From positions 1 through 64,000 of the forward strand of contig JAGTXO010000042.1 of assembly GCA_019448385.1 (NCBI GenBank): a stretch of DNA of 64,000 nucleotides, in the 5' to 3' direction. Each line of letters begins with the position of its first letter. Position 1 is the stretch's first letter. A program made the translations under genes and the position numbers. Positions 22,416 through 64,000 of this stretch are shown one piece after another. Origin of the DNA: Diacronema lutheri. Its lineage: Eukaryota; Haptophyta; Pavlovophyceae; Pavlovales; Pavlovaceae. The notes below the pieces were generated by a model, which saw nothing but the letters and a program-made list of their open reading frames with translations, was not told the origin of the DNA and did not search any database.

Positions 22416-22446
<31 letters not shown>

Positions 22447-32826: not shown

Positions 32827-32939
32827 CGCGCCAAGCCGTGCGACACGCGCCGCGAGCCAAGGCGGAGCTTTTGGACGGGCTAGAACTTTTGCGCGCCGCG
32901 GGCCTGGGCGCGCCAGCAAGCAGAGGGGCTGCGTGGGCC
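32827..32939. promoter_or_regulatory. Shared upstream region of the ATM-like gene and MOCOS
   Basis: 113 bp between divergent starts (32826 minus, 32940 plus). If MOCOS starts at 32838 the gap is only 11 bp. No recognisable motif was seen. Confidence 0.4.
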
Positions 32940-35900
32940 ATGCGGCGCGCATGGCTGGCGATCGGCGCGGTCGCGGCGGCGGCGCTCGCGCTCGCGCGCG
33001 CGCGCGCGCGGCGTCGGCGGCGGCGGCTGCTCGCCACACAGCAAGAGCAGCCTAGCATCGCCGCCGCCGCCGCCGCGACCGCCGCACGCAAGGCCGACTT
33101 TGTCCGGCGCGCGGGCGCGGCATACGGATATGGCGAGTCGGCCGCCGGGCACATTGACGGCTGGCGCGCGCGCGAGCTGCCGGGGCTCGTGCCGCCCATC
33201 GGCGCACCGCCCAGTGCTGCGCGCGCGTCCGGCCCGCGCGCCTCCGCCAGCGCTCTGCCCGTGCCGTCCGCGCCCATCGTGTATCTCGACTGGGCGGGCG
33301 CCGCGCTGCCGCTCGCGTCACAGCTCGCCGCCGGTGCCGCCGCCGCCGGCGCGGCGGTGTTGGGCAACCCGCATTCGACGGGGCCGGCGGCGAGCGCATC
33401 GGCGCGGCATGCCGAGCACGCGCGCCAACGCCTCCTGGCCCATTTTTGCGGCGAGCGCGCGCACGAGTTTGAACTCATCTTCACGAGCGGCGCGACCGCG
33501 GCGCTCGCGCTCGTCGCGGCCTCCTTCCCGTTCAGGCGCGGCTCGAGGTTCGTGTACGCGGCGGAGGCGCACACGTCGGTGATAGGGATGCGCGCGCCCG
33601 CGCTCGCAGCCGGCGCCGCGTTCGCCGCCCTCCCGCCCGACGCGCCGCCCGATGCCTGGGCGCGCGCGGCGGACGGGCCGGCGGCGCGCGGCGCGGCCGG
33701 CAGCGGCGGCGACGACGGCGCGCACGCCGACGTCGGCGGCGTGGTGGTGGACCACCTCGCCGCCGTGCCGCTCGAGTCCAACTTTGACGGGCGCACGTAC
33801 GACGTGCGCGCGATCGTCGACGCGCTGCTCGCGGCGTCCGCCGCCGAGCGCGCGCACGCGGACGGCGGCGCCGGCGCGGCCGTCAGCGCCGGCGCCGGCG
33901 CCGGCCGCGCCGCGGGCGAGGGCCGCTGGTGGGTGCTCGTCGACATCGCCAAGGCGGCGGCGAGCGGGCCCGTCGACGTTCCCGCGCTCGGTGCCGACTT
34001 TGCCGTCTTCTCGCTGTACAAGGTCTTCGGCGCTCCAACCGGTGTCGGCTGTCTCCTCGCACGCAAAATGGCGGCGCGCGCGGTGCTCCGGCGGCCGGCG
34101 CACGCCTACTTTGGCGGCGGCTCGGTCGCGGCCGTGCTCGCCGGCGCCGACTTCGCACGCGCGCGCGCCGCGCCGGCGGCTGCGCTCGCGGACGGCACGC
34201 CAAACTTCCGCGCGTTCGCCGAGGTGCCCGCCGGCCTCGACGCGCTCGAGCGCGTGGGCGGCATGGCCGTCGTCGCGCGGCACGCGCGCGCGCTCGGCGC
34301 CGAGCTGCGCGCGCGCCTGCGCGCGCTCACGCACCACGGCGGTGCGCGCGCGGTCGTGCTGTACGAGGAAGGTGGCGTTGGCGCCGCCGGCGGTCCGCGC
34401 GCGCAAGATGGCAGCGCCAGCGCCGACGCGCCGCGCGACGGCGAGCGCGCGCGCGCGCCGACAGTTGCGTTCAACGTGCTCGGCGCGGATGGCAAGTACA
34501 TCTCCGCCGCGGAGGTCGTGCGGCTCGCAGCGGGCGCGCGCCCGCCGCTGCAGCTGCGCGCGGGCTGCTTCTGCGCGCCGGGCGCGTGTCAGCGCGCGCT
34601 CGGCCTGAGCGACGCCGCTATCCTTGCCGCGCTCGCTGCCGGGCACGTGTGCGGCGACGATCACGACATCTCGCCGACGGACGGCGCGCCGCTCGGCGCC
34701 GTCCGCGCGTCGGTTGGCAGCTGGTCGACGTGGGAGGACGTGGAAGCGCTCGTCACCTTCGTACACGCCACGTTCGTCGCCGACGACGCTGGCGATGCGG
34801 CGCGCGACGGCAGCGCGCACCGGCGCGCCGGCGAGCGCGCACGGCTGCGCGCGCGGCCGCCCGCGCGCGCGCTCCGCGCGCCGCGCGCACGGCGTCCGCC
34901 TGCGGCCGCGGGCGCGCACCGTCTGGCCTTGCTGTACGTGTTCCCGATCAAGTCGTGCGGCGCGATGGCCGTGTCACGCTGGCCCGTCTGCGCGACGACG
35001 CGCCGGCTGCTGCTTGACCGCGAGTGGGCGCTGGTGGATGCGTGTGGGGACGCGATGCGGTTACGCCAGCACCCAGCGATGGCTCTTCTTGTGCCGACGG
35101 TCGACTTGCGTGCGGGCACGCTCACGGTGCGGTGCGAGAAGATGCGCACGCCGCTCGTGCTGAGCATCGAGCCGCCCGGAGACGGTGCCGGCCGCTCGAC
35201 GAGGGCGCCGTCTGGCGCCGCCGCGGCCGGCGCGGGCGATCCGAGCGATGGCGGCGGCGGACCAGAGCCTCTGTCGGTGTGCGGCGAGCCGTGTGCGGGC
35301 AGGCTCGCGGGCGGCGGCGCCGCGGCCGCCTGGTTCAGCCAAGCCCTCGGCGTGCAGTGCGCGCTGATGCGCGCCGCGCCGCTCCGCGCGCCGTCAGCCG
35401 CCGCGCCGGCGCGCGCGAGAGACCGCGCGGCGGGCGGACGCGCCGAGGGCGATGACTGCGCTGTGAGGATGCACGGCCGGTTTCACGATGGCGCCGCCGC
35501 CGGCGTCGACGCCCGCGTGGCGCGGTGCGAGGACGGCGCGGCCGGCGCGGCGGCGGCTGCGAGCGTGGCGGCGGCCGCCCTGCGCGAGCGCGCGGCCGAG
35601 CGGCGCGAGCGGCTGGGGTTTTCAAATGAGGCGCCACTGCTCCTCATCGCGCAACCGGCTGTGGACGAGCTCAACTGTGCGCTGCGCGGGCTGGGCGGTG
35701 CGCCCGTTGAGGCGCGCCACTTCCGGCCCAACCTGGTCGTCGAACCGTGCCACACGGACGACAGGTGCGGCGGCACGCCGGCAGGCGCGGACGGCGAGAA
35801 GGACTCGGAGGAGGACGCGGGGGACGTGGCGTGCTCGGACGGCTCGGGCGATGAGATGGATCGGCGGGAATGGCAGCGCGCGGTCGGCCACGAGGAGGAC

Positions 35901-46164: not shown

Positions 46165-49100
46165 CTAGTGCAGCGTGGGCGCGCGAGGGGTATTGAGGTT
46201 GAGGGAGGGGCCAGGGGCGCAAGGCGTCAGAGCAGCGCAGAACGCACGGCCGCCGGCGACGAAGCCCGCGCGCCACAGTTCGCGTCGCGCCCCCGGTGCG
46301 CGGGCGGCGCGCATGCGCGCACCACTCCAGGCCGGTGGCGCTTTCAAGTCTCGCCTCGCAAGGTACTCCATCAGCGTTGTGGTCGGCCCGTCATCCGGCA
46401 GGATCTGCTTGCACCTGCCAAATAGCGCATGCGCCTCGAGCCAACTGCCCGCAAAGTACAAGCCCAGAGCCCGCTCCCAAATTTGGAGGAATTCGAAAGT
46501 CGTGGTCCTGCGGAGCGCGTACATGGCGGCGGTGCGGCGGAAGGTGCGCACCTCGCGCTCGAGCTCCTCGAGCGCCTCGCGCTCCGCGTCGAGCAGCGCC
46601 GGGTCCGACGCGTCCGCAGGCGCAAGCTCAGCGTGTGCTCTCTGCACGTTGAACAGCTCGAGCGCGGTCGCCTCGTCCTCGGGCAACGAGCCGCCCGTCG
46701 GGTCCAGCTTCTCGCCAGCGCGCACGGTCTCGTCGTCCTCGGCGATGTCGAGCGTGTACAGCGTGAGCGGCCGCGCAGAGCCCTTGACCGTCACGCGGTC
46801 CACCTTGCGCAGGCATGCCTGGGGGGGCAGCGCGCGGCGCGGCGCGAGGCGCGCACAGCGGCGCGACGCGGCGGTGGACGCGGACGCGGCGGACGCGCGA
46901 GGGTAAGTTTGCGCCCCTTGGCACCCTCAGCGCGCGCGGTCACAAATGAAAGCGTTGGTGCCGCGCGGCGTCGTGCGCCCCCAGGCCGTGCGCACGGGGT
47001 CACGCCCGCGCCGTCACGCGCCATCACGCTCGCCGCGCGCGGCGCGCGCGGCACCTTGCACTTTGCGGACATGACGGAGACGACCTGCTCCGAGAGGAGG
47101 ATGCGTACGCCATACTGCTTGGTCGCCGCCTCGAGGCGCGAGGCGAGGTTGACGTTGGGCGAGAGATACGACGCGTCAATCTTTAAATCGGAGCCAATCG
47201 CGCCTTCGATCGCCCAGCCCATGTGCAGCCCGTAGCCCGTGTTGACGGCAAAACCAGGATGGAGGCGCTGGAGCAGCTCGTTCTGGCAGAGCTGCCTGAG
47301 CTGCTTGTTCGCCTTGAGCAGCAGCACACAGAGCGCAAACCCAGCGACCGCACAGTCGGCGGTTGTGAAACCGTCGTGCGCATGCGGCTGCGGCGCGTAC
47401 GGCACCTCCGCTGCCTCGGCGCGCGAGCCGAGCGACGGTGGCCTGGTCAGGCGCTTCGCGACGCGAACAGCCTGCCTCGGCGACTCGGCGGGCGATGACT
47501 CCGGCGTCGAGCGGCAATCAGCAACGTCAATCGCAGGCGGGGCGCTGCCATGCGCATTCGACGCGCCCGCGCCGCCGGCGTCGCCAGCATCGCCGGCGCG
47601 CGCGTCGCCAAAGCGCGAGCGCGCAAACGACGACGCATCGCGACTGAAGCCGATCGGCCGCGCGGGCGGTGGCCACCAGTGGGGCGGCTCGTCCGCAGCG
47701 TGATCAGACGCGCGCGAGCTGCAGCGGCCGACGTCACGCGCGCCGCCCACGCCGCCGTCCGCGGGCAATGGCGGGAACGCGCCCGCGACGCGCGGCTGTG
47801 AGGCGCAGCGGGAGAAGGCGGGCCGCTGCGGGATGTCGGGCTCGTCGGAGAGGGGCAGCGGGGCTGCCAGCGGCTGCTGCACGGTGGTTCGCGAGCCGGC
47901 GCGAGTGAATGCGGGCGCGCGCTGGGACAGCTCAAGCGGATCGGCGAGCAGGGGCGGCGTGGCGGCGTGCAGCACGTTGCCGCGCGACGAGCCGCGGCTG
48001 AAACTCGTGCGCCGCTGCGGCACGTCGGGCTCGTCGGAGAGGAGGGGCGGCGAGCCTCCGGCGGCCAGCGGCAGCTGGCAGGACAACGAGGCGGCGCTCA
48101 GCGGCGGGCGCGCAGGCGCGCTGGCGCTGGGCTCCGAGCTGCCGGCTTGCATGGCCCAGCGCTGCGGCATGTCGGGCTTCTCGGAGAGGGGCAGCGGGGG
48201 CGACGTGGGCTGCTGCACGGTGGCGCGCGAGCCGGCACGAATGAACGCGGGCGGGCGCTGGGACAGCTCAAGCGGATCGGCGAGTTGCGTCACCGCCGGT
48301 GGCGCGCCCCTCCTCTTGCGCGCGGCGCCTCGCGCGAAGAGGCTCGACGTCCCCTTGATCGACCCGCCCAGGGCCTGCGCCCTGCCAAAGGCGCCGTACG
48401 GCGCGACAGCCACGCGGCCGGCCGCGAGCCCGCCGCGCGACTCGCGGCCAGCGGACGCGCGCCGCTCCCAGGTCGACCGTTCGCTCTGGTCGCCCATGCC
48501 CGAGCTGTGCGTGTCGCCCGAGCCGCGCCGGCCGTCAGCCACGCGGCCCGCTCGCCCGCCCGCGACGCTCGAGTGCCCCGAGCCGCGCCGCTCGGCCCAC
48601 GGCCCGCCGGCCGCGCCTCCGTCGGCGCAACTGCAGCCGCGGGCGGTTGAGAAGCGGGCGGTTGAGAAGCGGGCGGTTGAGAAGCGGGCGGTTGAGAATC
48701 CGCGCGCGCCTCGGAAAGGCGATGCCTTACTCGGCGACGGCGGGCGCGGGCCCGGCGAGTGCTGCCGAGCGTCGCCCTGCAACGGGTCTGCGGACGCGCG
48801 CCGCCTGTCGAGCTGCTGCCGCTTCTCCGTGTGGTGCTCCAGCGGCCACACCATCAAGAAGGCCTCGCCAATGTTCTTGTTGATCGCGCCCGCAAACTCG
48901 TGCACGCACGCATGCACGATGGCGGCGACGCGGTTGACGTAGAGCATCACGCCCTCGCGCAGAGCCTCGGTCGTGTCGCCAAAGGAGAAGATGACGACGA
49001 AACCGAAGAGCCCGACCATCCTGCGCCCGGCGCTCATCGGGTTGATCTCGCCGCCCTGCGCGAGATTCGCGCCGATGATCGCCGCGCCCGCCTCGCCAAA

Positions 49101-50913
49101 GCCGATCTGCAGCAGCGACGCGATCTTGCCGATCGACTGCACCAGGTTTGACGTGTCCTGGTGCACACCGCGCGCCGCCCATCCGCCCGCGCCCGCGCCC
49201 GCGCGCATCTTTGCGAGCGGGTTTGCGGAGAAATCGCGCACCATTTGCATGATCGATTCGATAGGCTGGATGCAGTAGGTGTTCGACACGCGCTTGAAGA
49301 CGAAGACGGACGTGCCGAGCATCAGCGCGACAAAGGTCGTGATCGCCATCGAGAAGCGCGCGCGCAGCCGCGAGTCGGCGGACACGTCGAAGGTGACCTC
49401 GGCGGACCACGCGCGCGCCGCCGCACCGTCACCAGCGGTGACGTGCACGCGCACGACGTCGGTCTCCTCGCCCGGCCGCAGCGCGGCGAAGCGCGCCGCT
49501 TCGTTGATCACCAAGCCGGGTAGATCGAGCCGTATCACGTTCCAGAAGGAACGCAGCCGCTCGGCGAGGACGGCAAGCGTCGCCGCGTCCGCGCGCGCGC
49601 CGCCGGCGCCCGCGACGAGCGCGAGCGCGTCTCGCGCGACGTGCAGCTCGTGGTCGAGGCGGTGGCGCTCAACGCGCACGTTGAGCAGCGGGTAGACGAG
49701 CACGAAAAGCAGCACACCCGCCACCGTCTGCTTGGTGATCTTCTCCGACAAGATCTGCCCCGCCTGCGACGCTGCCGCGACGCGAGCGCGCGGCGCCTGC
49801 GCGCCGCTCAGCCGCGACTTGAGCTCCGTCGGGTTTGGCACCCAGTCCGGCACGGCCTGGCGGCGCTTGCCCGGCTGCGCGAGGCCACGCGCGAGCTGCG
49901 CGCCCTTGCGCAGCAGCCGCACGAGCCGGCCGACGCGCACGAGCCGCAGCGCGCGGATCGCGCGCGCGACCCGGACCGCACGCACGCTCGCGAGCACGCT
50001 CGCCCCCGCGCGCTCGTCCGCGGTCGAGGTGGCCGAGCGCTCGTCGTGCGCGGCGTCGGGCGCGGCGGATCGCGCGATCGGCCGGTAGATCTGTGGGATG
50101 TCCAGCGTGAGCGAGAGCGTGCCGACCAAATCGAGCCACCAAAAGAGCGAGAAGGTGAAGCCCGGCTTGGCCCACGTATTTAAAAGGAGCTCCAGCCCGC
50201 ACACCGCAAAGCATACGGCGTGCAGCGCGGCGAAGGCGTCGTCGTCCGGCCGGCTGTAGAGCGCAAGGCGCACGTCGTTGGCGTACATGGCGAAGAGCGT
50301 CGCGCACACCATCACGATCTGCGCCGGCCGGCGCGGCGCGACGCGGCGAGGCGGCGTGAGCGGCGGCGGCGCGCGCGCGGAGCGACTCACGAGCAGCGCG
50401 CGGCCCGGCCGTGACGGCGCGCGCGGCCGGAGGGCGCGGCCAGCGGCAAATGCGGCGCACTGTCACAAGCGCGCCTTCGAGGAAGGCGTTCGTGTGCCAC
50501 TGGAAGTAGCCGTTCCACGTGACCTCGTCCTCGTCCTGCTCGCGCCGCGCCCGGGGTTGGGGGGAGGGGGCTCAGGCCGCGTGAGGCGCGCATGTGGGCG
50601 AGGGAACGCCATGCTGCGAGCGGCAGGCGGCGCTAAGCACAACCCGATGAGCCTGCACGCGCTGCACGAAGACACAGCCGCCGTCTCGACGGCCGCAGGC
50701 TGGCCGCGCCGCGCGTGCGCGCGCGCGCGCCGGGCGCACATCGTAATCATCCCACTCGTCCGAGTAGAAGGAGCGCTCGTCCTCGAGCTCGGCCGAGGCA
50801 TCCTCCGAAGCCGGCAGGTCGAGCTGCAGATCCGACCGCCTCTGATGCGACGGCCTGACGATTCCTGCCGCCGCCGCCGCTTCCGCGGGCGGCTCGTGCG
50901 GACCAACTCGCAT
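46165..50913 (-). CDS. Voltage-sensor-like membrane protein with C-terminal class III cyclase domain
   Basis: Four inferred exons: 50913-50740, 50535-50467, 50318-47055 and 46818-46165, all phase 0, giving 1,386 residues. An acidic N-terminus (SFYSDEWDDYD) leads into TWNGYFQWHTNAFLEGAL, then transmembrane helices (MVCATLFAMYANDVRL; LHAVCFAVCGLELLL) and an S4-like helix with regular arginines (RVARAIRALRLVRVGRLVRL). After a large loop domain comes another membrane helix (FSMAITTFVALMLGTSVFVF) and the cyclase domain typical of algal and protist channel-cyclases (SLLQIGFGEAGAAIIG; KIDASYLSPNVNLASRLEAA). The last join reads SAKCK then ACLRKVDRVTVKG, as in that family. Val523 replaces the first metal-binding Asp and Glu566 the second, so activity is doubtful. 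A low-complexity linker (about 47450-48700) splits the cyclase domain. Ends tail to tail with UTP15. Confidence 0.78.
48639..48698. repeat. Four 15-bp tandem repeats in the cyclase linker
   Basis: GCGGGCGGTTGAGAA four times without change. On the coding strand it encodes FSTAR-type pentapeptides in the disordered linker inside the cyclase domain. Confidence 0.9.
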
Positions 50914-51431: not shown

Positions 51432-51587
51432 TGGTGGCTACTCGATTCCCCCGCAGCTGGTGCTGACCCCGCTGTCCTGACGTAAGCGCCGTTAGTATAT
51501 TTTTGGGTCCAGCGTCGAAAAGTACGGAGTCCGGGCGGAGTCCGGGCGAAAGTTTGCAAACACTTTGGAATTGTCTAAAAGTACCCA

Positions 51588-51629: not shown

Positions 51630-52044
51630 AAAAAACTATGTATAGATGGTCAAGCCAAATCCGATCAGGGGCACGATCGCGCCCCGAGTGCAGCGCGGGC
51701 CGTTCGGAAGGACGTCCTTGTGAGGGAGCTCTTCGCGTTTGGCGAGCGGGGGAGCACGACGCGCAGCGTTGCTGCGGCGGCGTGCGGGCGGCGAGCAGCG
51801 GTCGGGCTGCTCGCGACGAGGCCGGAGCAGACGGCGCCGTGGCCGCCGGCGCAGGTGACGCGCGCCGACGAGCCGTAGCGAGCGTCCGTGATCCGCACGG
51901 CGGTTGGAGCGGGCCGGCTGGTGCGGCGCGCTCGGCCACGGGTGGCGGCGTGCACGGTCGTGCCGCGCGCGGCACGCGTCGCCAGCCGCGCGCGACCTGG
52001 GCAGAGCCCGCAAAGCGTCGACCGCTGCGCGGCTCGGCCGTGCG
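51630..52044 (-). other. 415 bp between TIR element and Fanzor stop; candidate omega-RNA site
   Basis: Downstream of the Fanzor coding end on the same strand. In Fanzor and TnpB systems the guide (omega) RNA usually comes from this position, overlapping the 3' end of the gene. I see no definite structure by eye and cannot fold it here. No other gene is supported. The first 40 bp are AT-rich. Confidence 0.25.
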
Positions 52045-55000
52045 TCAACGCCGGCCGCGCTTCGGCCCGCGCGCGCTGCCGCCGCCGGCACTGGCGCTGG
52101 CAGCTCCGCGGGCGGGGGTGCGGGCGCGAGAGCCGCCGCCGCCACCGCCGCCGCGCCCGCCGCCGTCGTCGCCACCGCCGTCGCCGCCGCCGCCTCCCCC
52201 GCCGTCATCGTCGTCGTCGCCGCCGCCGCCTCCGTCGCCGTCGCCGTCGCCGTCGCCCTCGCCGCCGCCGCCGTCGCCGCTGCCATCGTCGTCGTCGTCG
52301 TCGTCGCCCTCGTCGTCGCCCTCGTCGTCGCCGTCGCACTCGTCGTCGCAGTCGTCGCCCTCGCCGTGCACCATGCGCTCCTCACGCTCCCACACCTCGC
52401 CGCGCGCCCACCAGGCGAGCACGAGGGCAAAGCGCTCAGGCGTCGACGTGGTGTCGCGCCCGGCCGCGTGCGCCGCCATGTCGTGCACGTCGTAGAAGAT
52501 GTTGCGCGCGGCGTTGTAGTCGCGGTGCACGGGCTTCTTGCCGCCGTTGCACGCCGGGCAGATGACGAGCGCGTGCACCGTGCGCGTGCCGCCCTTTGCC
52601 ACGGGCAGGCGCGGGTTCTGCGCGAGCTCCGCGCCGCAGCGCTGCAGCCTGCCGCCCTTGGCGAGCCGCGGCATCGAGCAGTGCATCGACGTGTACGGCT
52701 CGGGCACGAAGACGGCCGCGACGCCGCGCCGCCGCAGCTCGCGCAGCAGCCCCACCTGGAAGGCGGGCGGCGCGCCCTTGGGCTGCGCGCCCTTGTGGTC
52801 GCGCAGCCACTTGCCCACGCACACGAGCAGCCGGTCGCGCGTCACGCCGTCGACACAGTGCGCCGCGATGAGCGCCTCGGCGACGCGCGCCGCGTTGGAC
52901 CGCCCGCCGCTGTCGCGCCGCCAGCGCTCCTTCCGGCGCGCCGGCGCGTCGTACACGTGCTCGGCGGCGCGCTCGCGCACCCGCGCGCTCTCGCGGTGGA
53001 AGGCGTGGAACTCGCCCTCGCCGAGCACCTTGGCGCTGTGCGCCTCGCCAAGCCGCGCCTCGTCCGCCTCCACGCTGAACTCCTCGCCGCGCCCGTCCTT
53101 GCGCACGCGCCGCCGCGCCGCGTTGGTCTTGGCCGTCTCGCGCGCAAAGCCCGCGGCGCGCGCGCGCGCGCGCTGCGTGAACTGCCGCCAGACGGCCGCC
53201 CGCCCGACGTGCGCAGAGTAGGTGGTGATGTTGCCCATGTTCGGGTCGGCCGCGACGACGACCGCCGCCTCGACGTCGATCGCCCGCCGCAGCTCGGAGC
53301 CGAGCGCGACGGCGATGCGCCCGTCCGGCCGGCGCCAGCGGTGCAGGACGCCCGAGCCGCCGGCCGGCGCCTGCGCCTTCGGCACGAGGACGGTCCCGAC
53401 GGCGTGCACGGCGACGCCATCTGTCACCACCGACTTGACGGGCTGCCGGCCCGGGAGCGGCACGCGCGGCAGCGGCGCGAGGCCAACCCACGAGCGCCGC
53501 GCGTGCCACGGCAGATCGGCCGGCGGCCGCTCGCGCCCGGCGTAGTCGAAGACGCGGTTGGAGATGTCGAAGCGCGTCGCAAAGACCGCGTACCTGACGC
53601 GCACGTCCGACATCGGCGGGGTGTTGCCGTTTGTGCCTGTCCACTTGATCGGCTCGCCATCGTGGTCGCGCAGGTCCAGCGCCTTGAGCCGCGCGCGCAG
53701 CTCCTTGCGCTCGTCATCCGAAAGCGTCACCCAGATGGCGCTCGCGGCGAGGCGCACGTTGCGCGGCACCTGCGCGCAGCGCGCGGCGCGCGAGCGCGCG
53801 GGCGCGTGACCAACCTGGCCGCGGGGCGGCGCGCACGGCGGCGGCGCGCGCGCTTGGGCGCTCGGCGGCGGCAGCGGCAGCCACGCCTCGCGCGCACATT
53901 GTGCGTGCGCAGCGGCGCCACATTGTACCGCGGCGGCCGTCCGGTCAGCTGCGTGTGGATGTGCGCGAGCCGGCAGAGCAGCGCCTGCCCCTCGGCCACG
54001 TGCTGCAGGGTGCGGATCTGCACGAGGAAGTAGCGCGTCGTGTGCCGGTCGTAGTTCCACCTTTTCGTGGGCGTGCACTTGTAGTCGATCTTGTGGAGGA
54101 CCATGTCGGGCAGGTGGCGGTCGAGCGCGGCGGGGCAGCCGACGCGCGCGCCCTCCACGTCGCCGCGCAGCAGCCGCTCGCACAGCTCGCGCACGCGCGC
54201 GTTTCGCTGCATCTCGGGCAGCGCGACGAGCGCCTCGTCGCGCTCGACTGCCGCGCGGACGACGTCGCGGAGCAGCCCGTTCACGACGCGCGATGGATGC
54301 ATCAGGCACGCGGTGGACACCTGCGTCGCCTCCGCCTCGAGGATCTCCGTGAGGCCCACCGCGCAGACGGGCTGGACGCCCTCGGCCATCTCGCCGACGG
54401 CGCGCGCCGTCGCCGCCTTGGTCTGCGCGGCGGCTTGCTCGGCGGGCTTGCCTCGGGGCGCTGCACCGTACGTGCTCTCGTCCTTGTGCCAGCCGATGGC
54501 CGAGAAGATCGCACGGACGGTTCCCTTGTCCATCGTGGTCGACGTGTGCACGCTGGTCGACGGGCCGCCCGACGCCGCGCCGACGGCCTGCGCGCTCGCC
54601 ACCGCAGCCTCGTCGCGCACCACCTTGTTGATGACGCGGTACGCCTGTGTCGTGAGCCTGTGCACGGCCGCCGCGATGCGCCGCAGCTCCTTCCGCGCAC
54701 CGGGCTGCGCCGTCACCGCCTGCGGCCCCGCGTTGAGCGTCGAGCGCTTGACCACGAAGCCCGGGAGCACGCTGACGCGCGTGCGCGCCGTCGCGCCGCC
54801 GGCGGCGCGCGCGCTCGGCGCAGCGGGCTCGTCCACGCGCGCGCGCTCGACGCCGCGCGCGCGGGGAACGCTCGGCGCGCGCGCGCCCGCGGCGTCGCGC
54901 GCGCTCGCGGCGGCACCCGCCGCGGCGCGCTTGCCCGCGGCGCCCGACTCGCCGTGCGCGCGAAGCGGCGCCGACGCCAATGCCGACGCCGCGCCCGCGC

Positions 55001-58000
55001 CGCCGCTGCCGCTGCCCGATACGCCCGCGCGCCGCTTCTGCTCGTCGCGCGTCTTGCGGAACTGGGCGACGAGGTCGCTGCTCACGTTGGCCTCAGGCTC
55101 CCACGTGTCGGCGCTCTCGTCGTAGCCCCGCCACCTGATCCGGAACTGGAACGTCACCTTCTTGCCCGCCTTGCGGCGCTCGTCGACGACCGCCTCGACC
55201 TCGTACGTGCGCGCCTCCTCGTCGACGCTCGCGCCCGCCGCGCTCGCGCCCGTGTCCGGCCACCCAGCGACCGTGCCGCCCAGCCTCTCGGCGGCCGCGC
55301 GCAGCTGCCGCTCGCGCTGGGCGGCCGCGGCGCCTCGCGCGACCAGCGCGGGCAGCATGCCCGCGCCGCCCGCGAGGCCGTGCGCGCCGACGCTGGCGGT
55401 CATCAGCGCGTCGAGGCACGCGAACGTTGCGAGCGCACGCGCGCCATCGTCGCCGCCGCGCGGCTGCGAGCGCACGACGGGCGATGGCCGCGGCTCCCCC
55501 TCGGCCGCGAGCAGCGGCCAGATCGCACTGGCCAGCGCGACGGCATGCGCGCCGACCGCGACGGCCACGTCCGCGTCGAGCGGCGCAAAGTCGTAGCGCA
55601 CGAGCGCGGCCGGGCGCGAGTCGTCCGTCGGCCGGTCGGCGACGAGCAGCCCGACCGGGCGCGGCGGCTCGCCGGACGGCGCGGCGACGGGCACGCAGAG
55701 GAGCACGACGAGCAGGCGCGGCGTGCCGCCGAGCAGCGCGCGCGCGGCATCCGCCCCGTCGGCTCCGCCGCGCGCGGCCGCGGCGAGCAGCTCGGCCGCG
55801 CGCGTCGGGCCCAGCGCCGTGCGCGCGTCCTTGCGCGCGCGTGCGCGGGCCGTGTACGCGGCGCAGGCGTCGTCGAGCACCGCCGCGCTGGGCGCGGTGC
55901 CAGTCGTCGCCCACGCGCGCAGCGCGTCGCGCACCCGCGTGACGATCGCCTGGTCGACCGCCGCCTCGCCGGCAGCGTGCGCCGGCGCGCACGCCGGCGG
56001 TGCGGCGGCAGGCGCGAGCGCGGGCGCGCCGTCGGCGCCGTCAACGCCGACGGCGCCGTCGGCGCGCCGCCACGCGAGCTTCGCCTCGATCTGCTGCCGG
56101 ACGGCGTGGCAGTGCCGGTCGATGCCGCGCGCGTCGTCGAGCGCGGCCAGCGCGTCCTCAGCGGCGGGACGGCCGCTCGCGTCCGCGACGGCCTGCAGGC
56201 AGAGCAGCGCGGCCGCACGCGCGTTGCACGCGCTCTGCGGCTCGGGCGCGAGCGCGAGCTCGAGCTCGAGCGGCGACGCGCCTCGCGCCGCGGCGATCGC
56301 GTCCATCAGCACGTCCAACCGCTGCACCAGCGCCCTGTGCGCGTCGCGCGGCGCGCCCGTCGACGGCGCGCGCGAGCGCGTCGCCACGAGCCCGAGCGCG
56401 CGCGCCGGCGCGCCCGCCGGCGTGTGCAGCACGAGCAGCGCCGCGCCCGCCAAGCTCGCGTTGCGCGTGACGAGCGCGAAGATGCGCGTCGCCTCGTGCG
56501 CGCCCACCGACGCCCAGATCGCAGCGCGATCGGCGTCCGTCTGCGCGTCGCACAGGTCGCGCACGTCGTCCGGCGCGAGCAGCGCGCCGCCGCCGGCGGA
56601 GCGCGCGACGATCGCCCGCGCCTCCGCCACGAAGACGGCCTGCGGCAGGTCGGCGTGGCGCGCGTCGACGATGGCGCGCGTCGCGTGCACGCCGAGCTCC
56701 ACGCCGCGGTAGAAGGCGCGCGCGTTGGCCGCGCGCGCGTGCGCCGGCCGTCCGTCCGCGTTGCGCCTCGCGCGCGCCTGCTTGCTCGTGCGCGCGAGGC
56801 CGTCGCGTGGCGGTGGCGGCAGCGTGGCGAGGAAGCGCGCGGCGGGCGGCGGCGCGCGCACGCCGCGCTGCCGCCGTGCGATGGCCGCGAGCCGCCGGCC
56901 CGCCGCGCTGCCGCCCGCGCCGACGTGCTGCCGGCGGCCGAGCGCCGCCGGTGGCGGCGGCGGCGGCGGCGCGGCGGCGGGCGGCGGCGCGACGGCGGGC
57001 GGCGGCGCGGCGGCGGGCGGCGGCGCGGCGGTGGGCGGCGGCGCGGCGGCGGGCGGCGGCGCGGCGGCGGGCGGCAGCGGCGGCGGCGCGGCGGCGACGG
57101 CAGCACCAGTCGGCTTGTCCGCCCACGCACCCGAGACTCTGTCCCAGACCTTGCCCCATGGCGCGCGCCCACGCGGCCGCGCGAACTGCCCCGGCTCGAG
57201 CGCCTGGCCGCGCTTGGCGGCGGCGGCGGCGGCAGGGGGCGGGCGGCCGGCGCGCCAGTCGAAGACAGGTGCAACCGTGGCGGCAGGCGCCGAGTGCCGC
57301 GCGTCGGTCACAGAGCGCGTGGTGCGCGCGGCGACCGTGGCACGCCTGGCGGGCGGGCGGTGAGCAGCGCCCGCCGGCGCGCCGGCGGGCGCGGCCGCCT
57401 CGAGCCCGGCGGAGGCGCCGCGCTTGCGCTTGCGCGTGCCGCCGCGCGTGCGCCTGCGCGCGCGCCCGCCGCGCGCCCGTTCGGCCTGCGCGTCGCCAGC
57501 CGCGTCGCCGGCCGCGTCGCCGCGCCGCACGTAGACGACCGCGAACGCCTCCTCGCCGGTCCCGTCGACGCCGCCGCGCGCGCGGCGCAGGACCGACCGC
57601 CACTGCAGCCGCCGCGCGCGGCCGGGCTCGCACGCAAACCAGCGCCCACCGCGCCTGACGACGGCCACAAAGTCGTCGTCGCGCCGCCCGCGCCGGCGCG
57701 TGCGCAGCAGCACGCACTGCACGTCGAGCCAGCCCTCGTGCCAGTCGGCCGTGCTGGGGGCGACGCGAATCGACTGCGGGAGCTCGACGCCAAAGCCGGC
57801 GAGGCGCACGATGTGCGCGACGATGACGCTCGAAATGGCGGGGGCGCTCGACGGGTCGCCCGCTGCAGCGAGCACCGCCCCGCCCCAGTGCTCACGCGTG
57901 ACGCAATCCGCGTCCTCGACGTGCACGTGCGCCACGCTCGCGCCGAGCTGGTGCAGCAACGCGCAGATGTCGGCGTCGACCGTCCTCTCCTCCTCGGCCG

Positions 58001-61000
58001 CCTCGGCCGTGCCGCGGGCGGCGGCGTCGCCTGCCGGCTGCCCGAGGTACGCGATCGCCCGCTCGACGGCCGCGCGCTCCGCACGCGCTGCGCTGTCGAT
58101 CGCCGCATTGCCGACGGGCGCGCGCAGCGCCGCGATCGCGTCTTGCAACGCCGTCGCGTCGCCCGTCGCCGCCGCCGCCGTCACCGCCGCCGCGCTCGCG
58201 GTGCCGTGCGCGACGGCGTGCAGCGCGGCGGCGCGCGCGGCGGGGATGCGCCCGTCCAGCGCGAGCACGAGCGGCGGCCCGGCCGGCGTCTGCTGCCGCC
58301 GGTGCCGCCGGCTCGCAGCCGGGTGGTCGGCGCGCGCGCGCTCGAGCCGCGCGCGCCGCTCGACGACGCGCGCCCAGAAGGCCTGCACCCTCGGCTGCGC
58401 GAATGCAAGCCAGCCGGCGCCGCGCGTCACGACGTGCACGACGATCCGGTCCTCGTGCCTGAGGTACTGCACGTAGAGCGCTTTGCTCACGCCGAGGACG
58501 TGCATGCCGAGCTGCAGCTGATCGCGGTGCGGCTGCGGCGGCCCGTCCTCGTGCGCCGTGGCGCCCGCCTTGGTGAGCGTCTTCACCTCGACGAGGACCT
58601 GCTCGTTGTTTTCGGGGAGGATGGCGAGCCCGTCCGGCGAGAAGGCGAACGGCGCGCTCTTGTCGTGCGGGTCCGCACGCACCATCGGCAGGTTGCACAC
58701 GACGGTGATGCCGTACGCGGCCGCCAGCTTGCGCAGCGCGACGGCCTCGCCGAGGATGCCCGCGGTCGTCGCCTTGGTCCGCACCTCGCGCCGCCGCCGG
58801 TGCACGTACTCGTCGGTGAGCGTCTCGTGCGCGACGCCGGCGTTGTCGTTCACGACGTCGCCAACCTTGCTGCCCGTGACCTCCTCCCATCGCTCGTCGT
58901 GCCAGCGCGGGCTGCGCTGCGCGGGCGCGCCCGCGCCGACGGCGTCGAGCACGCGGCGCAGCGCTGTGCCGTCGGGCGCAGCAGGCACGCGCGCGCGGTC
59001 CTGGGCCTCGCGAGCGTCGAGGACGCGGCCCGTAGTGGAATCTTGGGGTAGGTCGAGCTTGCTCGCCTCGCCGTAGCGGCTCTCCAGCTGGCGCGGTGCG
59101 TCGGCAGGGCCGCCGTCCGTGCGCGCACCCGACGCGCCCGCCAGTGCACGCGGCGCAGCGTCCGAGGCGCCCGCCGCGCCCGCGCCGCCGCCAATCGCGC
59201 CAGCGCACGCGCGCGCCGCGACCTGCGGACGGCCAGCCGCAGGGACCTCGTCCGCTCGGCCGGCCGCTGCGTCGGCCGTCCGCTTGGCCACCTCGCGCAC
59301 GTCTCCGAGCGCGAGCGTGGCTGGCGCCGTCCAGCTCCCGTTGCGTTTGTCCCAACATTTGAGCAGCCCGCCAAGGAAGGGCGTGCCCGTCGGGCGGTCC
59401 TCGGGCACCTCCGCCAGGATCGCGTCGACGCGCAGCGCGGCCGCCACATCGCAGAACGCGCGCGCGGCGCGCGCCATCCGCTCGGCGCGCGCGCCGCCGT
59501 CGTCCGCCGCGCGGCGGATGGCGTGGCTCACGTGCGCGACGCGGAGCGAGACGACGGCGTGCGCCGGCGCGTCGGCGCCCGTGCCGAGCGTGTGCCGCCG
59601 GATGGCCAGCTGCCCATCGCCCATGCGCGGCGGCAGCGACGCGCACGCCGCGACGGTCGTCGTGCCGGCCGCGCTGTCGCACAGCCAGCTCGCCTCGCCG
59701 CCGCCCGCAAACTCAAAGGTCGCGAAGCCCTCGCGGCCGAAAAGCGCGACGAAGTGGTCGAGCACCGCCTTGTTGATCGCGCGCGCCGCCGGCCGCGTCG
59801 ATGCGCCGCGGGCAGCGCCACCCGCCGCGCCGCGCGCATCGCTGCACGTCGCAGGGCAGGTGCAGCCGGACGCGCGCACGCCGTCCGACCGCGTCCGCGG
59901 CAGCTCGAGCTCGCGCACCTTGGGGCAGAACCAGAGCGGGTTGGACGCCTCGAGGCACAGCACGACGAGCCGCCCGTCCGTGCCGGCCAGCGCGCGCGCG
60001 TCGCGCAGCAGCTCGACGGCGAGCTCGGACGTCGCCGCGTGCACCGCCGGCTCGCCCGTCGCGCGGTCGGGCGGGAAGAGGCCGCCGCCGACGAGCGGGC
60101 TGGGGCAGCGGCCGAGCATCACGAGAAGCGGCGGCGGCGGCGTCTGCGGCGCCTGCTGCCCGACCGCAGCCGCCGTCAGCCCGGCCAGGTCGGAGCTCGT
60201 GCGGAGGGCCTTGAGCGCGACGCGCGAGCCGGTGCCCGCCTGCTCGGAAAACGTGGCGAGCATGGCGCACGTGCTCGCCCTCGCGCCGCACTGCCAGCTG
60301 ACGCGCGCGAGGAGGCCTTCCAGCGTGTCGTTTTCGCGCGGCCGCGTGACCGCGTCGAGCGCCGCCGGGCCGAGCTGGAGGCTGCCGGGCGTGACGCACA
60401 GCACCGCCTCGTGGTAGGCGCGCAGCAGCTCCCTCGGCAGCTGCTCGGCGGGCGTCGCCGCCTGCCCGCCCACCCACCGTGCACCGTGGCCGCCGTCGCC
60501 CGCGCCCGCGAGCCGGACCGCCGGCCCGCCCGTGATCGCCGAGGTCGGTGGCGTGCCGAGCGCGTCGACGAGCGCGCGCACGGGCGCGACACGCCTGCGC
60601 GCAGCGTCCGCGCCGACGGCGAGCGCGGCGATCTGAGCGCCGTCCCATGCGCGCTCCCTCGCGTCGTCCCGCGCGGCCGCCGGCGCGGCGCCCGGCCGCG
60701 CGCCGGGCGGCACCGCGCACGCCGCCGCGACGACCTCCGCGCGCGCGCCGGCGGCGTCGGGCGCGTGCAGCTGCGCGAGCGCGCCAAAGAGCGCGGCGGC
60801 CGAGCGGTAGCGGCCGTGCGCCGCGACGAGCGCGTAGAGCACGCGCAGCGCGGCCACGCCCGCCTGGTCGGGCGCGTCGCCAGCGATTTGCTCGACCTCC
60901 CACGTGCGCGTGGGCGGCGGGCTGCCGTCGGCCGGGTCCGGACGCAGCGCCCACGCGCGCTCGACGATCGCGTTGAACACGCCGTGCGCGGCGCCCTCGT

Positions 61001-62618
61001 CAAACTCGGCGGCGCCCGCCGCGTGCGCGCACCACCCGTGCACGCGCGACGTGGGCGCGTCCACGGCGCGCTGCACGACGAGCACCGCCGGCCGGTCGAC
61101 GCAGCCGAGGCTCACCGCCGCGTGCTTGCCCTCGAGCAGCGCCGCCGCCGCAGCCTCGACCAAGGCGTCATCAGGCGCGTCGCCGACGACGACGGCACAG
61201 CCGTCGCCGTACTCGGCCTGCATCGCGGCGACGCACGACGCGACAAAGTCGCCGCCCGCGGCCGCCGCGTGTCGCGCCGCCAGCATCCGGCGCGCGATGG
61301 CAAGCCAGACGTACTCGGCCGGCGCGCGCGCGGCGCGCGCGCGAGGCGCGCCGGCCGCGCCGCGTGCGCCCGCGCGTGCGCCTCCAGCGGCCGCAACGGC
61401 CGAGGCGGCTGGAGCGGCGGTGAGCGTGCGCCGCGCGCGCTTCGCCGGCCGCGTGATGGGCGATGCACCCGCCATCGCACCGCCCGCAGCAGCCGGTGCG
61501 GCCGCCACAGCGCCCGCCGCAACGCCACTCGTCACGACGCCCGTGGCGGGCGGCGCGGCGGCGGACGTGGCCGCCTCGACGGGCGTCGCGCAACTACCGC
61601 CAGCGGTCGCGGACGCGCCCGGCGACGCGTCGGCGAGGAGGTGGCGCAGCACGCCGCGCGCGAGCGCGACTCGCACGGCGAGCGTCAGCGCGCGCAGGCG
61701 GTCGGAAGGCGAGGCGTCGCGCTCGGCGTCGGCGGACGTGGCGGCAGCAGGCGGGGCGGCGGGCGGCACGGCGGCGGGCTGGGCGGCCGTCGGCGCAACC
61801 TCGTCGGCCTTGGCCAGCCAGACGAGCCCGGCGACTGCGAGCACGACGCTGTACGCGCCGACATCGTCACCCGCAACGCGCGCCAGCCGGGCGTGGGCGT
61901 CGGCCTCGGACACGGCGACGTGGAAGAGCACGTCGTCGCGGGCAGCTTGCTCGGCAAACTGACGCAGCTGCTTGGCCATCGTCACGCCGGCGACGCACGC
62001 CTCGCCCGCCTCTGCCTCGACCTGCTCGTCCTGGCCGATGGCGGACGCGCCGGCCTCGGCGCCAGCGTCGAGTGTCCGGCGGCGCTCGAGGGCGAAGCCA
62101 CGCACACAGACGCGCTGGAGGCCGCCGAGCGCGCCCGCCTTCTCGTGCAGCGCGCACGACAGCTCGACCACCGAGTCCACGCGCCTCGCGGCGGCGCCCC
62201 CCCGCTCGCCGCGCGTGGCCGCGCGCACGACGAACACCGTGAATTGCGCGCGCTTCGCCGCGCGCGCCGACGCGCACGCGTGCTTCAGGAGCCGGCAAAG
62301 CGCGGGCCTTTGCGCCGCTGCGCCCCGCGTGCACAGCAGCAGTTGGCCGCGCTCGTCGCCCAGCTCCTGCTCGACGGCGGCCTCGAGCGCGTCGTCCGTC
62401 AAATCGCCGTGCTCCGTCGAGGCGAGCGCGCGCGCAGCCGCGAGCGCCAGCTCGCCTGCGCCCGCGCGCCGCCGGCGGCGCGCACCGGCGGGCGCGTGCG
62501 GCGCCGACGCGTGTGACGACGCCGCCGCGTCCGCGCGCGCACACGCGGCGCGCAACGCCTCACGCGCCGAGGCGGCCGCGCGCGCCCTGGGCGCGAGCTT
62601 CAAGAACGTGCGCGCGGC

Positions 62619-62691
<73 letters not shown>

Positions 62692-63722
62692 TCGCCCGCG
62701 TCGCCGGCCGGCGGCGGCGGTGGCGGCGGTGGCGGCGCGGCCACGGCGGCGGCAGCAGCGGCGGCGGCGGCGGTGGCGGCGGCGGCGGCGCCCAGCGCGG
62801 GCGGCGGCGGCGTGGCGGCGGCGGTGGCGGCGGCGGTGACGCCAGCGGCGGCCTTGGCGCCGCGCGTCTGCGGCGGCGTTTCGGCGCCATCGGGGCTGCC
62901 CCCGCCGCGCACCGCGCTCGTGACCGCGCAGACGCCGCCCGGCGCACGATCGCTGGCCGCGCCGGTCAGCGCGACGCGGAGGCGCTCGCCGACAGAGTAC
63001 ATGTCCGCCACGCTGAACGTGCGCGGCGCGGACGAGCAGCCCGCCGCGGCGAGCGCGTCGTTGAGCGCGCCCACTATCGCGAGGCCGCACGTCGCGCCAC
63101 GCTGCGCCGCCTCGTTGAGCAGCAGCGCGCGGCGCACGCGCGAAATGTCGAGACCCGCCGCGTGCAGCGTGGCAGTTATCGCCTTGGCGAGCATGAGCGC
63201 CTGCCTGCAGGGCGACGCGAGCGTGTCGACGAGCACCGCGTCGTAGCGATGCTCGCCCGCGCGCGCGACGCGCACAAGGCGCAACGCGGTGAAATGGCCG
63301 GAGGCGAGCTGCGCGCCGTCGTCACCGCCCGCGCCGCCGCGCTCGTCCGACGGGCTCCACACGCCGATGACAGCCTGCGTTGTCGCCTCGCTGCGCAGGC
63401 GGTGCAGCAGCGCGGCGCGCTCGGCGTCGTCCTGAAACACCGCGGGTTGCGCGGCGAGCGGCACGTGGCAGACATGCCCGCCGCCGGCCTGCCCGTGCAC
63501 GCGCAGCACGACCTCGCAGCACGCGTCGACGGTTGAGGCGAGCATGTCGCCGCTGGCGATGCGCTCCACCTCTGCCTGCGGGAGGCCGGCGCTCGCGGCG
63601 GCGGCGGCCAGCCGGCGCGCAGCCGCGTCGCCCGCCCACGCAAGCAGCGCCGAGTTGGCGGGTTGGAGGGGAAGCTCAAGGGCGGCTGGTTCGGTGGCGG
63701 TAGCCTCGTTGGCAACGGGCAC
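52045..63722 (-). CDS. Giant Ulp1 - YqaJ nuclease - chromodomain - Fanzor fusion protein, 5' end open
   Basis: Exon 1 runs from at least 63722 to 53898 and exon 2 from 53769 to 52045. The 128-bp intron (donor AAT|GTGCGC, acceptor CGCGCAG) is phase 0 and lies inside the Fanzor fold (APLRTHN|VPRNVRLAAS). At least 3,849 residues; the frame stays open to the window edge, so the start is not certain. In order: Ulp1-like protease (about 140-220; H143, D166, Q207, C212); Ala and Pro low complexity; further weak Ulp-like stretches; YqaJ/lambda-exonuclease-type nuclease (about 1,600-1,790; D1697, E1712, K1714); a USP-like strand pair (about 2,015-2,070); PPPAAA repeats; chromodomain (about 2,837-2,893); Fanzor (about 3,010 to the end). 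It looks whole. Whether it acts as one chain, is cleaved by its own protease or is made from several transcripts is unknown. Confidence 0.75.
52440..54700 (-). mobile_element. Fanzor (eukaryotic TnpB-like) RNA-guided nuclease module
   Basis: Fanzors are RuvC nucleases spread by transposons and viruses, and several are RNA-guided DNA cutters. The N-terminal helical part shows IAAAVHRLTTQAYRVINKVV, then PTKRWNYDRHTTRYFLVQIR and PPRYNVAPLRT. RuvC-I is AADPNMGNITTY (D3450), RuvC-II is VFVPEPYTSMHCS (E3632) and RuvC-III is HRDYNAARNIF (D3692), numbered from 63722. A zinc site is formed by the Cys after TSMH, LQRCG, and ICPAC. All three acidic residues are kept, so the nuclease is predicted active. 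The tail beyond about 52440 is an unusual acidic Asp/Gly run ending in a basic GPKRGRR. Confidence 0.85.
55045..55215 (-). other. Chromodomain
   Basis: EVEAVVDERRKAGKKVTFQF followed by RIRWRGYDESADTWEPEANV gives the full chromodomain pattern with its aromatic residues (Y/F, W and the Trp of DTWEPE). Such domains bind methylated histone tails and steer several mobile elements into heterochromatin. The order here is chromodomain about 120 residues before the Fanzor start. Confidence 0.88.
56960..57095. repeat. 18-bp repeats encoding PPPAAA
   Basis: About seven copies of a GGCGGGCGGCGGCGCGGC-like unit. On the minus strand they encode a Pro/Ala linker between the USP-like and later modules. Confidence 0.85.
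58370..58930 (-). other. YqaJ / lambda-exonuclease-type nuclease module
   Basis: SPRWHDERWEEVTGSKVGDV is the family start (W..R...tGS). The PD-(D/E)XK core is FAFSPDGLAILPENNEQVLV continued by EVKTLTK (D1697, E1712, K1714). HRDQLQLGMHVLG supplies the Gln of the last motif. Enzymes of this group resect DNA ends for recombination. All expected catalytic residues are present. Confidence 0.85.
62620..62835. repeat. GCG trinucleotide tracts encoding Ala and Pro runs
   Basis: An almost pure GGC/GCG array at about 62620-62695, with interrupted continuation to 62835. In the coding frame it gives a long poly-Ala with Pro stretches, directly after the Ulp1-like module. Confidence 0.9.
63060..63320 (-). 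other. Ulp1-like (C48) cysteine protease module
   Basis: SGHFTALRLVRV (His143), VLVDTLASP (Asp166) and NEAAQRGATCGLAIVGAL (Gln207, Cys212) give the His-Asp-Gln-Cys order and near-standard spacing (22 and 45 residues between; yeast Ulp1 has about 17 and 49). Such proteases act on SUMO or process transposon and virus proteins. Later stretches of the same frame (about 60,850, 56,210 and 55,420) look like degenerate relatives. Confidence 0.65.
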
Positions 63723-63749
63723 GTTGGCGGTGCGCGCGTTGGCGGCGGG

Positions 63750-64000
63750 CGCGGCGGCGATGGCTGGTGGGGCGGAAGACGCGCCCGCGGCGGCGGGCGC
63801 GGACGCGGCAGCGGCAGCGGCTAGTGGGGCGGGGAAAACGCCGTCGGTGGCAGGCGCGGAGGCGAATGCAGGAGCAACTAGTGGGGCGGGAAAATCGGCG
63901 GCAGGCGCGAAGGCGGATGCAGCAGCGGCTAGTGCGGCGGGGAAAACACCGTCGGCGGCAGGCGCGAAGGCGGATGCAGGAGCGCCCAGCGGGGCGCAGA
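63750..64000. repeat. Imperfect repeats of about 50-57 bp at the right edge
   Basis: Units with CTAGTGSGGCGGG, AAAA and GGCAGGCGCG start near 63821, 63878 and 63929, with a partial one near 63984. No stop of the giant minus-strand frame falls here, so the array may be coding and the gene may extend beyond the window. Confidence 0.7.

Follow-up and report, generated by a model that had tools for sequence, protein, structure and literature searches.

Fanzor1-type nucleases are recognised by the motif D-X(125,275)-[TS][TS]-XX-C4-X(5,50)-RD and are reported to occur as cargo of the Helitron2 elements CRe-1/2/3 of the alga Chlamydomonas, which lack ordinary inverted repeats and usually leave no target duplication (PMC3627910). 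Two further systems invite comparison, namely the ISL2EU (PHIS) transposons, described as encoding a YqaJ exonuclease domain, with autonomous elements that average ~4.8 kb and are reported from animals only (PMC4482050), and the IS200/IS605 elements, whose RNA-guided nuclease TnpB is thought to favour retention of the element by cutting sites without it (PMC10432273). Here, we analysed a stretch of 64,000 nucleotides (hereafter the window) from the haptophyte Diacronema lutheri, corresponding to positions 1 to 64,000 of contig JAGTXO010000042.1 (C43), in which a first-pass annotation had recognised one giant gene joining a Fanzor to a chromodomain, a YqaJ-type nuclease and an Ulp1-like protease. 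Our results show that this gene makes up the 3' portion of a repeat of ~31 kb with defined ends, located on the minus strand of C43 between positions 51640 and ~82627, and that the chromodomain and the Fanzor lie in one reading frame behind a RecE/YqaJ-type exonuclease, an architecture not described in the titles and abstract openings of the open-licence literature searched.

On the 3' side of the element, the homology of all ten other copies that were read with this side stops at C43:51638–51643. Its 5' end, at ~82627, was set by comparison with the copy on contig C71 and adjoins a gene ending at 82688, which looks, on visual inspection, like that of a dynein heavy chain. When the D. lutheri assembly was scanned (43,492,796 bases in 103 contigs; the published genome of strain NIVA-4/92 is given as 43,502,671 bp in 103 contigs, the longest of 3.042 Mb, with 73.25% GC and a read N50 of 23.458 kb; PMC8379373), the terminal patterns were found, at no more than one mismatch, 226 times for the 3' and 202 times for the 5' end, and a control with reversed patterns gave no match. 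From the first 100 places listed for each end, all of the 3' and 91 of the 5' ones were used and yielded 66 end pairs, of which 30 span ~31.0 kb, 13 span 21.5–22 kb, seven 26–27 kb and nine 29–29.5 kb, with seven others ranging from 12.6 to 32.5 kb. Extrapolated from the pairing of 66% and the mean length of 27.9 kb to the whole set of 226 3' termini, the family would amount to ~4.2 Mb, about a tenth of the genome. As to the shorter forms, the middle part is replaced in two copies (one belonging to the 26.5-kb class) that retain the PIF1 region and the beginning of the giant frame; one 12.6-kb copy is an internal deletion; and in a member of the 21.5-kb class, 2.2 kb matched with 86% similarity, the rest of the 4.5 kb read being different. 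Leaving matches to internal repeats apart, the aligned pieces of other copies (>150 bp) are 98–100% identical, and the existence of so many similar copies suggests recent activity of the element. The first-pass annotation had proposed a search of related algal genomes for copies and element ends, and had overlooked this high-copy repeat.

The junctions with the flanking DNA were read in 28 copies, comprising 20 of the 66 pairs and eight of 11 copies identified earlier, the 5' ends of the other three lying outside the sequence read. At the left junction, TATATA[C/G]-GGCGCGG is preceded by C in 20 copies, by G in six and by T in two. At the right junction, read in 27 copies, CCATC is followed by TATAC (25 copies), TAAAC (one) or TAACG (one), with G as the next base in 16 of the 27. 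The element thus begins with TATATA[C/G]GGCG and ends with CCATCTATAC, at sites that are TATA-rich. Terminal inverted repeats are absent: when the 100-bp ends were aligned locally with each other, the score fell short of the mean for shuffled sequences. If the ends are taken as TATATA[C/G]...TATAC, an abutting duplication of at least 8 bp is missing in 26 of 27 copies, and the remaining one is flanked directly at both ends by a perfect 13-bp duplication; in a control that ignored the abutting position, matches of at least 13 bp arose anywhere in re-paired flanks in 7.8% of the trials. A duplication of TA is compatible with all 28 left and all 27 right flanks, but TA may also be part of the element. 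A 5-bp duplication of TATAC was considered and dropped, given that TAACG or TAAAC stands in its place in two of the 27 right flanks, the left side of these copies being TATATA[C/G]. A subterminal palindrome, GGGGCGC-GATC-GTGCCCC (51668..51685, minus strand), is located 28 bp away from the 3' terminus ...CCATCTATAC and pairs in an RNA fold but not in a DNA fold. Palindromes lie near both ends of the C71 copy, whereas the window copy lacks the one at the 5' end. Compared with shuffled sequences, the fold of single-stranded DNA is no more stable at the 3' end (z-score of -0.66) and only weakly more stable at the 5' end (z-score of -1.66), where 11 of 200 shuffles were as good.

A number of contigs, for example at C1:1, C5:1, C12:1, C32:1 and C43:332690, have their boundary only a few bases from a terminus of the element, with both orientations represented. 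A repeat of 31 kb set against the shorter read N50 explains this, and the element is probably among the causes of contig breaks in the published D. lutheri assembly. Targeting of telomeres was dropped as an explanation in view of this length and of the two orientations seen at contig ends. In addition, there is a second abundant repeat, ending in ...GCGTCGTTAG-TATA, with 741 matches in the genome (no more than two mismatches; none in the control). It is found at ~51440–51510 and in the flanks of several copies of the big element (L085, C75:950k and L101), and two copies of the latter sit exactly at the TATA end of the GCGTCGTTAG repeat.

The giant gene extends beyond the upstream edge of the window. 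Its stop-free frame, C43:67268–53730 on the minus strand, comprises 4,513 codons, and the in-window part of the exon covers 53898..64000; the frame, intron and last exon of the first-pass annotation are present, but the start it placed near 63722 is not. The first coding part ends after codon 4457; the final 56 stop-free codons cross the intron (53770..53897, minus strand; 128 bp, phase 0, GT-AG) and extend, in the wrong frame, into the last exon. This exon (52048..53769, minus strand; 574 codons), which encodes the C-terminal half of the Fanzor with its RuvC-like nuclease and C4 zinc finger as well as a D/G-rich tail, is closed by a TGA codon at 52047–52045. The junction LRTHN/VPRNV recurs at another locus in the annotated D. 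lutheri protein KFE25_006464 (P0003), and the gene models of this species were made with RNA-seq (PMC8379373). Although long frames are common in DNA with 76% G+C, the length observed exceeds chance, because among 200 sequences as long as the element, generated by an order-2 Markov model, the longest stop-free frame had 1,396 codons. For the family as a whole, 150 of 260 candidate chromodomain matches were scored, the top four, with different scores and in other frames, were left out, and the remaining 146 were assigned by near-identical scores; 13 of them, in addition to the window's own, were aligned and compared at the level of single bases. A frame of at least 4,000 codons surrounds 102 of these 146 matches; in 60 it has 4,477–4,521 codons, with 23 different lengths represented, a pattern expected when length changes stay in frame.

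The chromodomain named in the first-pass annotation (codons 4022–4075; 55044..55205, minus strand) matches PF00385 with an E-value of 3.9e-12 and, in a PDB search, the structures of HP1 and CDYL. The giant frame has Met codons at 3655, 3956 and 3971 and the next one only at 4246, so that no in-frame ATG separates the chromodomain (codon 4022) from the start of the Fanzor (codon ~4166). This supports the view that both are part of one protein, barring a non-ATG start or an unseen splice, and the contiguous stretch is kept in all ten other copies. The predicted fusion of these two modules is thus supported at the level of the frame. By contrast, the YqaJ and claimed Ulp1-like parts are tied to the chromodomain and the Fanzor by the uninterrupted frame alone, which includes a run of 732 codons (2923–3654) free of Met. 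A single polypeptide or polyprotein carrying all domains would be in line with this frame, and we infer that the giant product is either one protein or a set of tightly linked proteins.

The motif of the nuclease and its nearest solved structures confirm that it is a Fanzor, as the first-pass annotation had proposed, and indicate, at the level of sequence comparison, the Fanzor1 type. Its C-terminal half matches PF07282 (TNB/zinc ribbon) above the cut-off (2e-6). The last exon contains the expected residues, namely an aspartate encoded by codon 175 (~53247), a glutamate by codon 357 (~52701), the cysteines C364/C378/C404/C407 and RD at codons 416–417, and the published Fanzor1 motif appears, in the numbering of the spliced protein, as D473-X184-TS-MH-C4-...HRD. 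A profile of four sequences (the element's own exon, P0002, L060 and L062) retrieved SpuFz1 of Spizellomyces punctatus (2.7e-8) and Parasitella Fanzor 1 (0.016) from the PDB; neither was found with the last exon alone or with a profile of this exon, P0001 and P0002. When compared with a profile built from two further Fanzor lineages in this genome, the element protein reached 98.6% in hhalign. In the relative P0002, which is 45–46% identical and suggests that related elements exist, the catalytic residues D, E and D are kept (D, E and RD align), but the full motif pattern as written is not matched. The N-terminal half of the Fanzor (53898..54773, minus strand) was assigned by its position, without a profile of its own, and its last part and the junction are common to P0003. 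The nuclease thus shares the RuvC residues D/E/D, the C4 finger and the motif spacing with SpuFz1; it differs from it in that a chromodomain precedes the Fanzor by ~90 residues within one frame and itself follows the exonuclease, a fusion that the available parts of the Fanzor papers do not describe.

The D. lutheri genome contains at least two further Fanzor lineages, L060/L061 (C9:376500–386400 and C71:708500–716500) and L062 (C86:1016500–1024500), which are 44% identical and located in frames of 1,329–1,681 codons. TNB is the sole Pfam domain found in L060 and L062, and the L060 lineage has 13 matches of identical score. In KFE25_006464, encoded on contig C69, a Fanzor fragment is in frame with SAM domains, possibly representing a host–transposon chimera.

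Profile matches and motifs also confirm that a RecE/YqaJ-type exonuclease domain is encoded in the same frame as the chromodomain and the Fanzor. This RecE/YqaJ/lambda-type domain (58419..58913, minus strand) shows the motifs GE, PD and EVK and matches the RecE-like PHROG family phrog_434 with an E-value of 4.3e-12 by itself and of 4.2e-15 when the in-window frame is used. Its matches to the Pfam YqaJ family PF09588 (0.022) and to the NCBIfam lambda-exonuclease family TIGR03033 (2.1e-5; 24.7 versus 68 bits required) are below the cut-offs, and a PDB search with the domain returned nothing relevant. While the first-pass annotation was right about the type of nuclease, its statement that YqaJ belongs to recombination systems is incomplete in view of the YqaJ-encoding ISL2EU transposons (PMC4482050). 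Its proposal of an Ulp1-like protease that processes the product could not be upheld: the segment in question (63039..63512, minus strand) shows, by eye, H, D, Q and C in plausible order, but no C48 protease was matched in Pfam up to E=10 or in PHROG, nor was there a relevant match in the PDB. A second H/D/Q/C segment, seen by eye further upstream, likewise lacks profile support, and the alignment of the two with each other (E=0.039 over 17 residues) is unconvincing. The region comprising codons 2336–2760 (58989..60263, minus strand) remains uncharacterised and is also a predicted protein (P0004) in a second data set for this alga, listed as Pavlova lutheri, with 419 of 425 residues identical. 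A protein search with 749 codons covering the YqaJ and uncharacterised parts retrieved P0004, from Pavlova lutheri itself, and no protein of any other organism, and a PHROG scan of 59259–60308 gave no match.

The part of the element upstream of the giant frame codes for a PIF1 helicase (1.8e-24), whose parts lie in different frames, probably owing to introns, and whose N-terminus may resemble DUF5871, a name found in one paper, on a haptophyte virus. It also encodes a protease domain of the UCH type (4.3e-8), different in kind from Ulp1, and proteins of no recognised type. Pfam scans (E<=1) covered all six frames of C43:70–82.7 kb, the three minus frames of 64–70 kb and, for 51.6–64 kb, the other two minus frames and one plus frame. 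In the frames scanned, no further domain rose above its cut-off, and there was no capsid, DNA polymerase, packaging ATPase or integrase domain. Helitron_like_N was absent from the six frames of C43:70–82.7 kb (E<=1) and from the minus frames below, and the only match to it in the genome (C63:35738–36019; 8.3e-23) has no similarity to the element within 3 kb. The tyrosine recombinase family PF00589 has 16 matches genome-wide, none of them within C43:51640–82627, although a very divergent enzyme could have escaped this search. In IMG/VR, scans with the Fanzor, two PIF1 frames and YqaJ produced 4, 11, 4 and 6 pattern matches, respectively, with no confirmed relative within a reach limited to close relatives.

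Collectively, the element encodes a Fanzor1-type protein but is not a Helitron, an ISL2EU transposon or a tyrosine-recombinase element, since each of these classes has at least one defining feature that was sought and not found. Helitrons and Helitron2 elements are defined by an HUH Rep joined to PIF1, whereas PIF1 alone was found here, and the ends 5'-TC ... CTRR-3' of Helitron1 differ from TATATA[C/G]GGCG ... CCATCTATAC. Like CRe-1/2/3, the D. lutheri element is algal, carries a Fanzor and has no ordinary inverted repeats; it differs in being 31 kb long, in its TATA-type site, in having PIF1 without a recognised Rep, in its additional exonuclease, chromodomain and protease domains, and in end palindromes that fold at most weakly better than shuffled sequences. 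Of the features of ISL2EU, the YqaJ domain is shared; a DDE and THAP transposase was not found in the frames scanned, inverted repeats starting with GG are missing, and TA rather than AT is found at the ends. A Crypton would contain PF00589, which was not matched within the element. It differs from IS200/IS605 in having no TnpA-like enzyme that was found, in being eukaryotic and giant, and in possessing its own exonuclease and helicase.

In the reading we prefer, although we consider its chances to be evenly balanced, this is a mobile DNA element without inverted repeats that encodes a chromodomain–linker–Fanzor protein after a RecE/YqaJ exonuclease, and whose copying would be favoured by Fanzor cutting, resection and PIF1-assisted synthesis. 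It would insert at TATA-containing sites by means of an enzyme not recognised in the frames scanned. A putative guide RNA, read from the 3' end of the element, would then direct the Fanzor to cut chromosomes that lack the element. The guide of TnpB in IS200/IS605 comes from the right end of the element, and the candidate source here is the 3' non-coding end (51640..52044, minus strand; 405 bp), in which two of 4,047 alignment cells differ between copies; Rfam gave no match in the window at gathering scores. The break may be resected by the exonuclease, and host recombination, together with the element's PIF1 acting over a long tract, may copy the 31 kb into it. Such a course would parallel the retention of elements discussed for TnpB-type nucleases (PMC10432273) and the known involvement of Pif1 helicase in break-induced replication (PMC4199488). 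The chromodomain could hold the enzyme on chromatin with methylated histones, where copies lie.

Several results weigh against this interpretation. The main gap is the integration enzyme, as the frames scanned yielded neither a recognisable transposase (DDE or THAP) nor a Helitron Rep nor a tyrosine recombinase; of the self-contained mobile system envisaged in the first-pass annotation, the mobility agrees with a high-copy repeat with defined ends, but the self-containment is not supported. Because the insertion sites differ beyond their TATA core, copying by homology would explain the retention of the element better than its spread to new sites. Separate proteins could account for the domains encoded before codon 3971. 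Structure prediction with AlphaFold for the last exon, run with three sequences, gave no usable model (mean pLDDT 35). Between young copies, there is no clear signal of purifying selection in most parts, with observed/expected N/S values of 0.98 for the last exon, 1.43 for the chromodomain part, 2.31 for the upstream open reading frame 66931–70965 and 0.67 for the N-terminal part. Such values are expected if the copies spread recently and then drifted neutrally, and they do not demonstrate constraint. Finally, the 3' end varies little, but so does the adjoining coding stretch, and the argument for a guide RNA is weak at best: in the same copies, 47 of 12,000 cells differ at 53500–52301, 45 of them in one 300-bp block, and none of 3,000 at 52600–52301. 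For the coding part 55300–52045 as a whole, the number is 130 of 39,381 cells, a figure inflated by extra copies read upstream.

Other explanations account for parts of these data. It seems to us somewhat unlikely that the element is a conventional transposon, for instance of the DDE type with a TA duplication, in which the accessory genes are expressed separately and the chromodomain and Fanzor alone form one protein. The TA present in all left and right flanks, the Met codons at 3655, 3956 and 3971, which permit a separate start of the chromodomain–Fanzor protein, and the YqaJ protein of ISL2EU transposons (PMC4482050) would suit this idea; neither DDE nor THAP domains in the frames scanned nor inverted repeats were found, however, and the 4,513 open codons, the preservation of at least 4,000 of them in 102 of 146 copies and the 732 codons without Met would be unexpected. 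Unlikely, in our view, is a rolling-circle mechanism similar to that of Helitron2, with PIF1 as the helicase half, a Rep that is unrecognised or acts in trans and the Fanzor as cargo. Here, the lack of inverted repeats, the first base T, the scarcity of abutting target duplications (one exact 13-bp case in 27), the presence of PIF1 and the palindromes near both ends of the C71 copy speak in favour, as do the reported Fanzor1-bearing Helitron2 families of Chlamydomonas (PMC3627910). The frames scanned nevertheless contain no Helitron_like_N, the genome's sole match is unlike the element, the 3' end is not CTRR and the insertion site differs from TTTT. End hairpins as a mark of Helitron2 are weakened by the DNA folds, which are no better than those of shuffled sequences at the 3' end and weakly so at the 5' end, and by the missing 5' palindrome of the window copy.

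We regard it as quite improbable that the element dispenses with a classical transposase altogether and spreads as an RNA-guided break-and-copy system, in which the Fanzor would set a programmed break beside a TATA-type motif, the fused or linked exonuclease would produce 3' tails, PIF1 would drive the copying of 31 kb in a manner similar to break-induced replication and the chromodomain would pick the chromatin. Large size, PIF1, proteases, YqaJ and Fanzors all occur in large DNA viruses, which speaks for an endogenous virus or a virus-derived element (Polinton-like or from a giant virus), as does the report of Fanzors in viruses (PMC3627910). Given that capsid, polymerase, packaging ATPase and integrase genes are missing from the frames scanned, that IMG/VR contains no confirmed relative among the close ones it could reveal and that ~200 copies have defined ends, we consider such an origin highly improbable, and the giant-virus ancestry entertained in the first-pass annotation finds no backing. 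The chance that the gene reflects an assembly artefact or a random frame in DNA with 76–78% G+C appears next to nil, even though contigs often end at element ends and very high G+C makes long frames common, as the frame far exceeds the Markov maximum of 1,396 codons, the contiguous chromodomain–Fanzor stretch is found in all ten other copies and a near-identical protein exists in the second P. lutheri data set.

Outside the element, the window contains a minus-strand frame of 1,223 codons (46791–50462), which reads by eye as a gene for a class III adenylate/guanylate cyclase, and a stop-free minus-strand frame of 5,218 codons (17395–33051), longer than that of the giant Fanzor gene.

The role of Fanzors in eukaryotic mobile DNA is an open question, and the D. 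lutheri element offers a natural system in which to ask it, as a small algal genome assembled from long reads contains near-identical copies with legible termini and flanking DNA. The joining of the Fanzor to a chromodomain and its linkage to an exonuclease and PIF1 suggest a concrete and testable division of labour. A naturally chromatin-tethered RNA-guided nuclease would be of interest for genome-editing work and, if the break-and-copy reading were true, a eukaryotic machine that cuts, resects and copies would be encoded in a single element.

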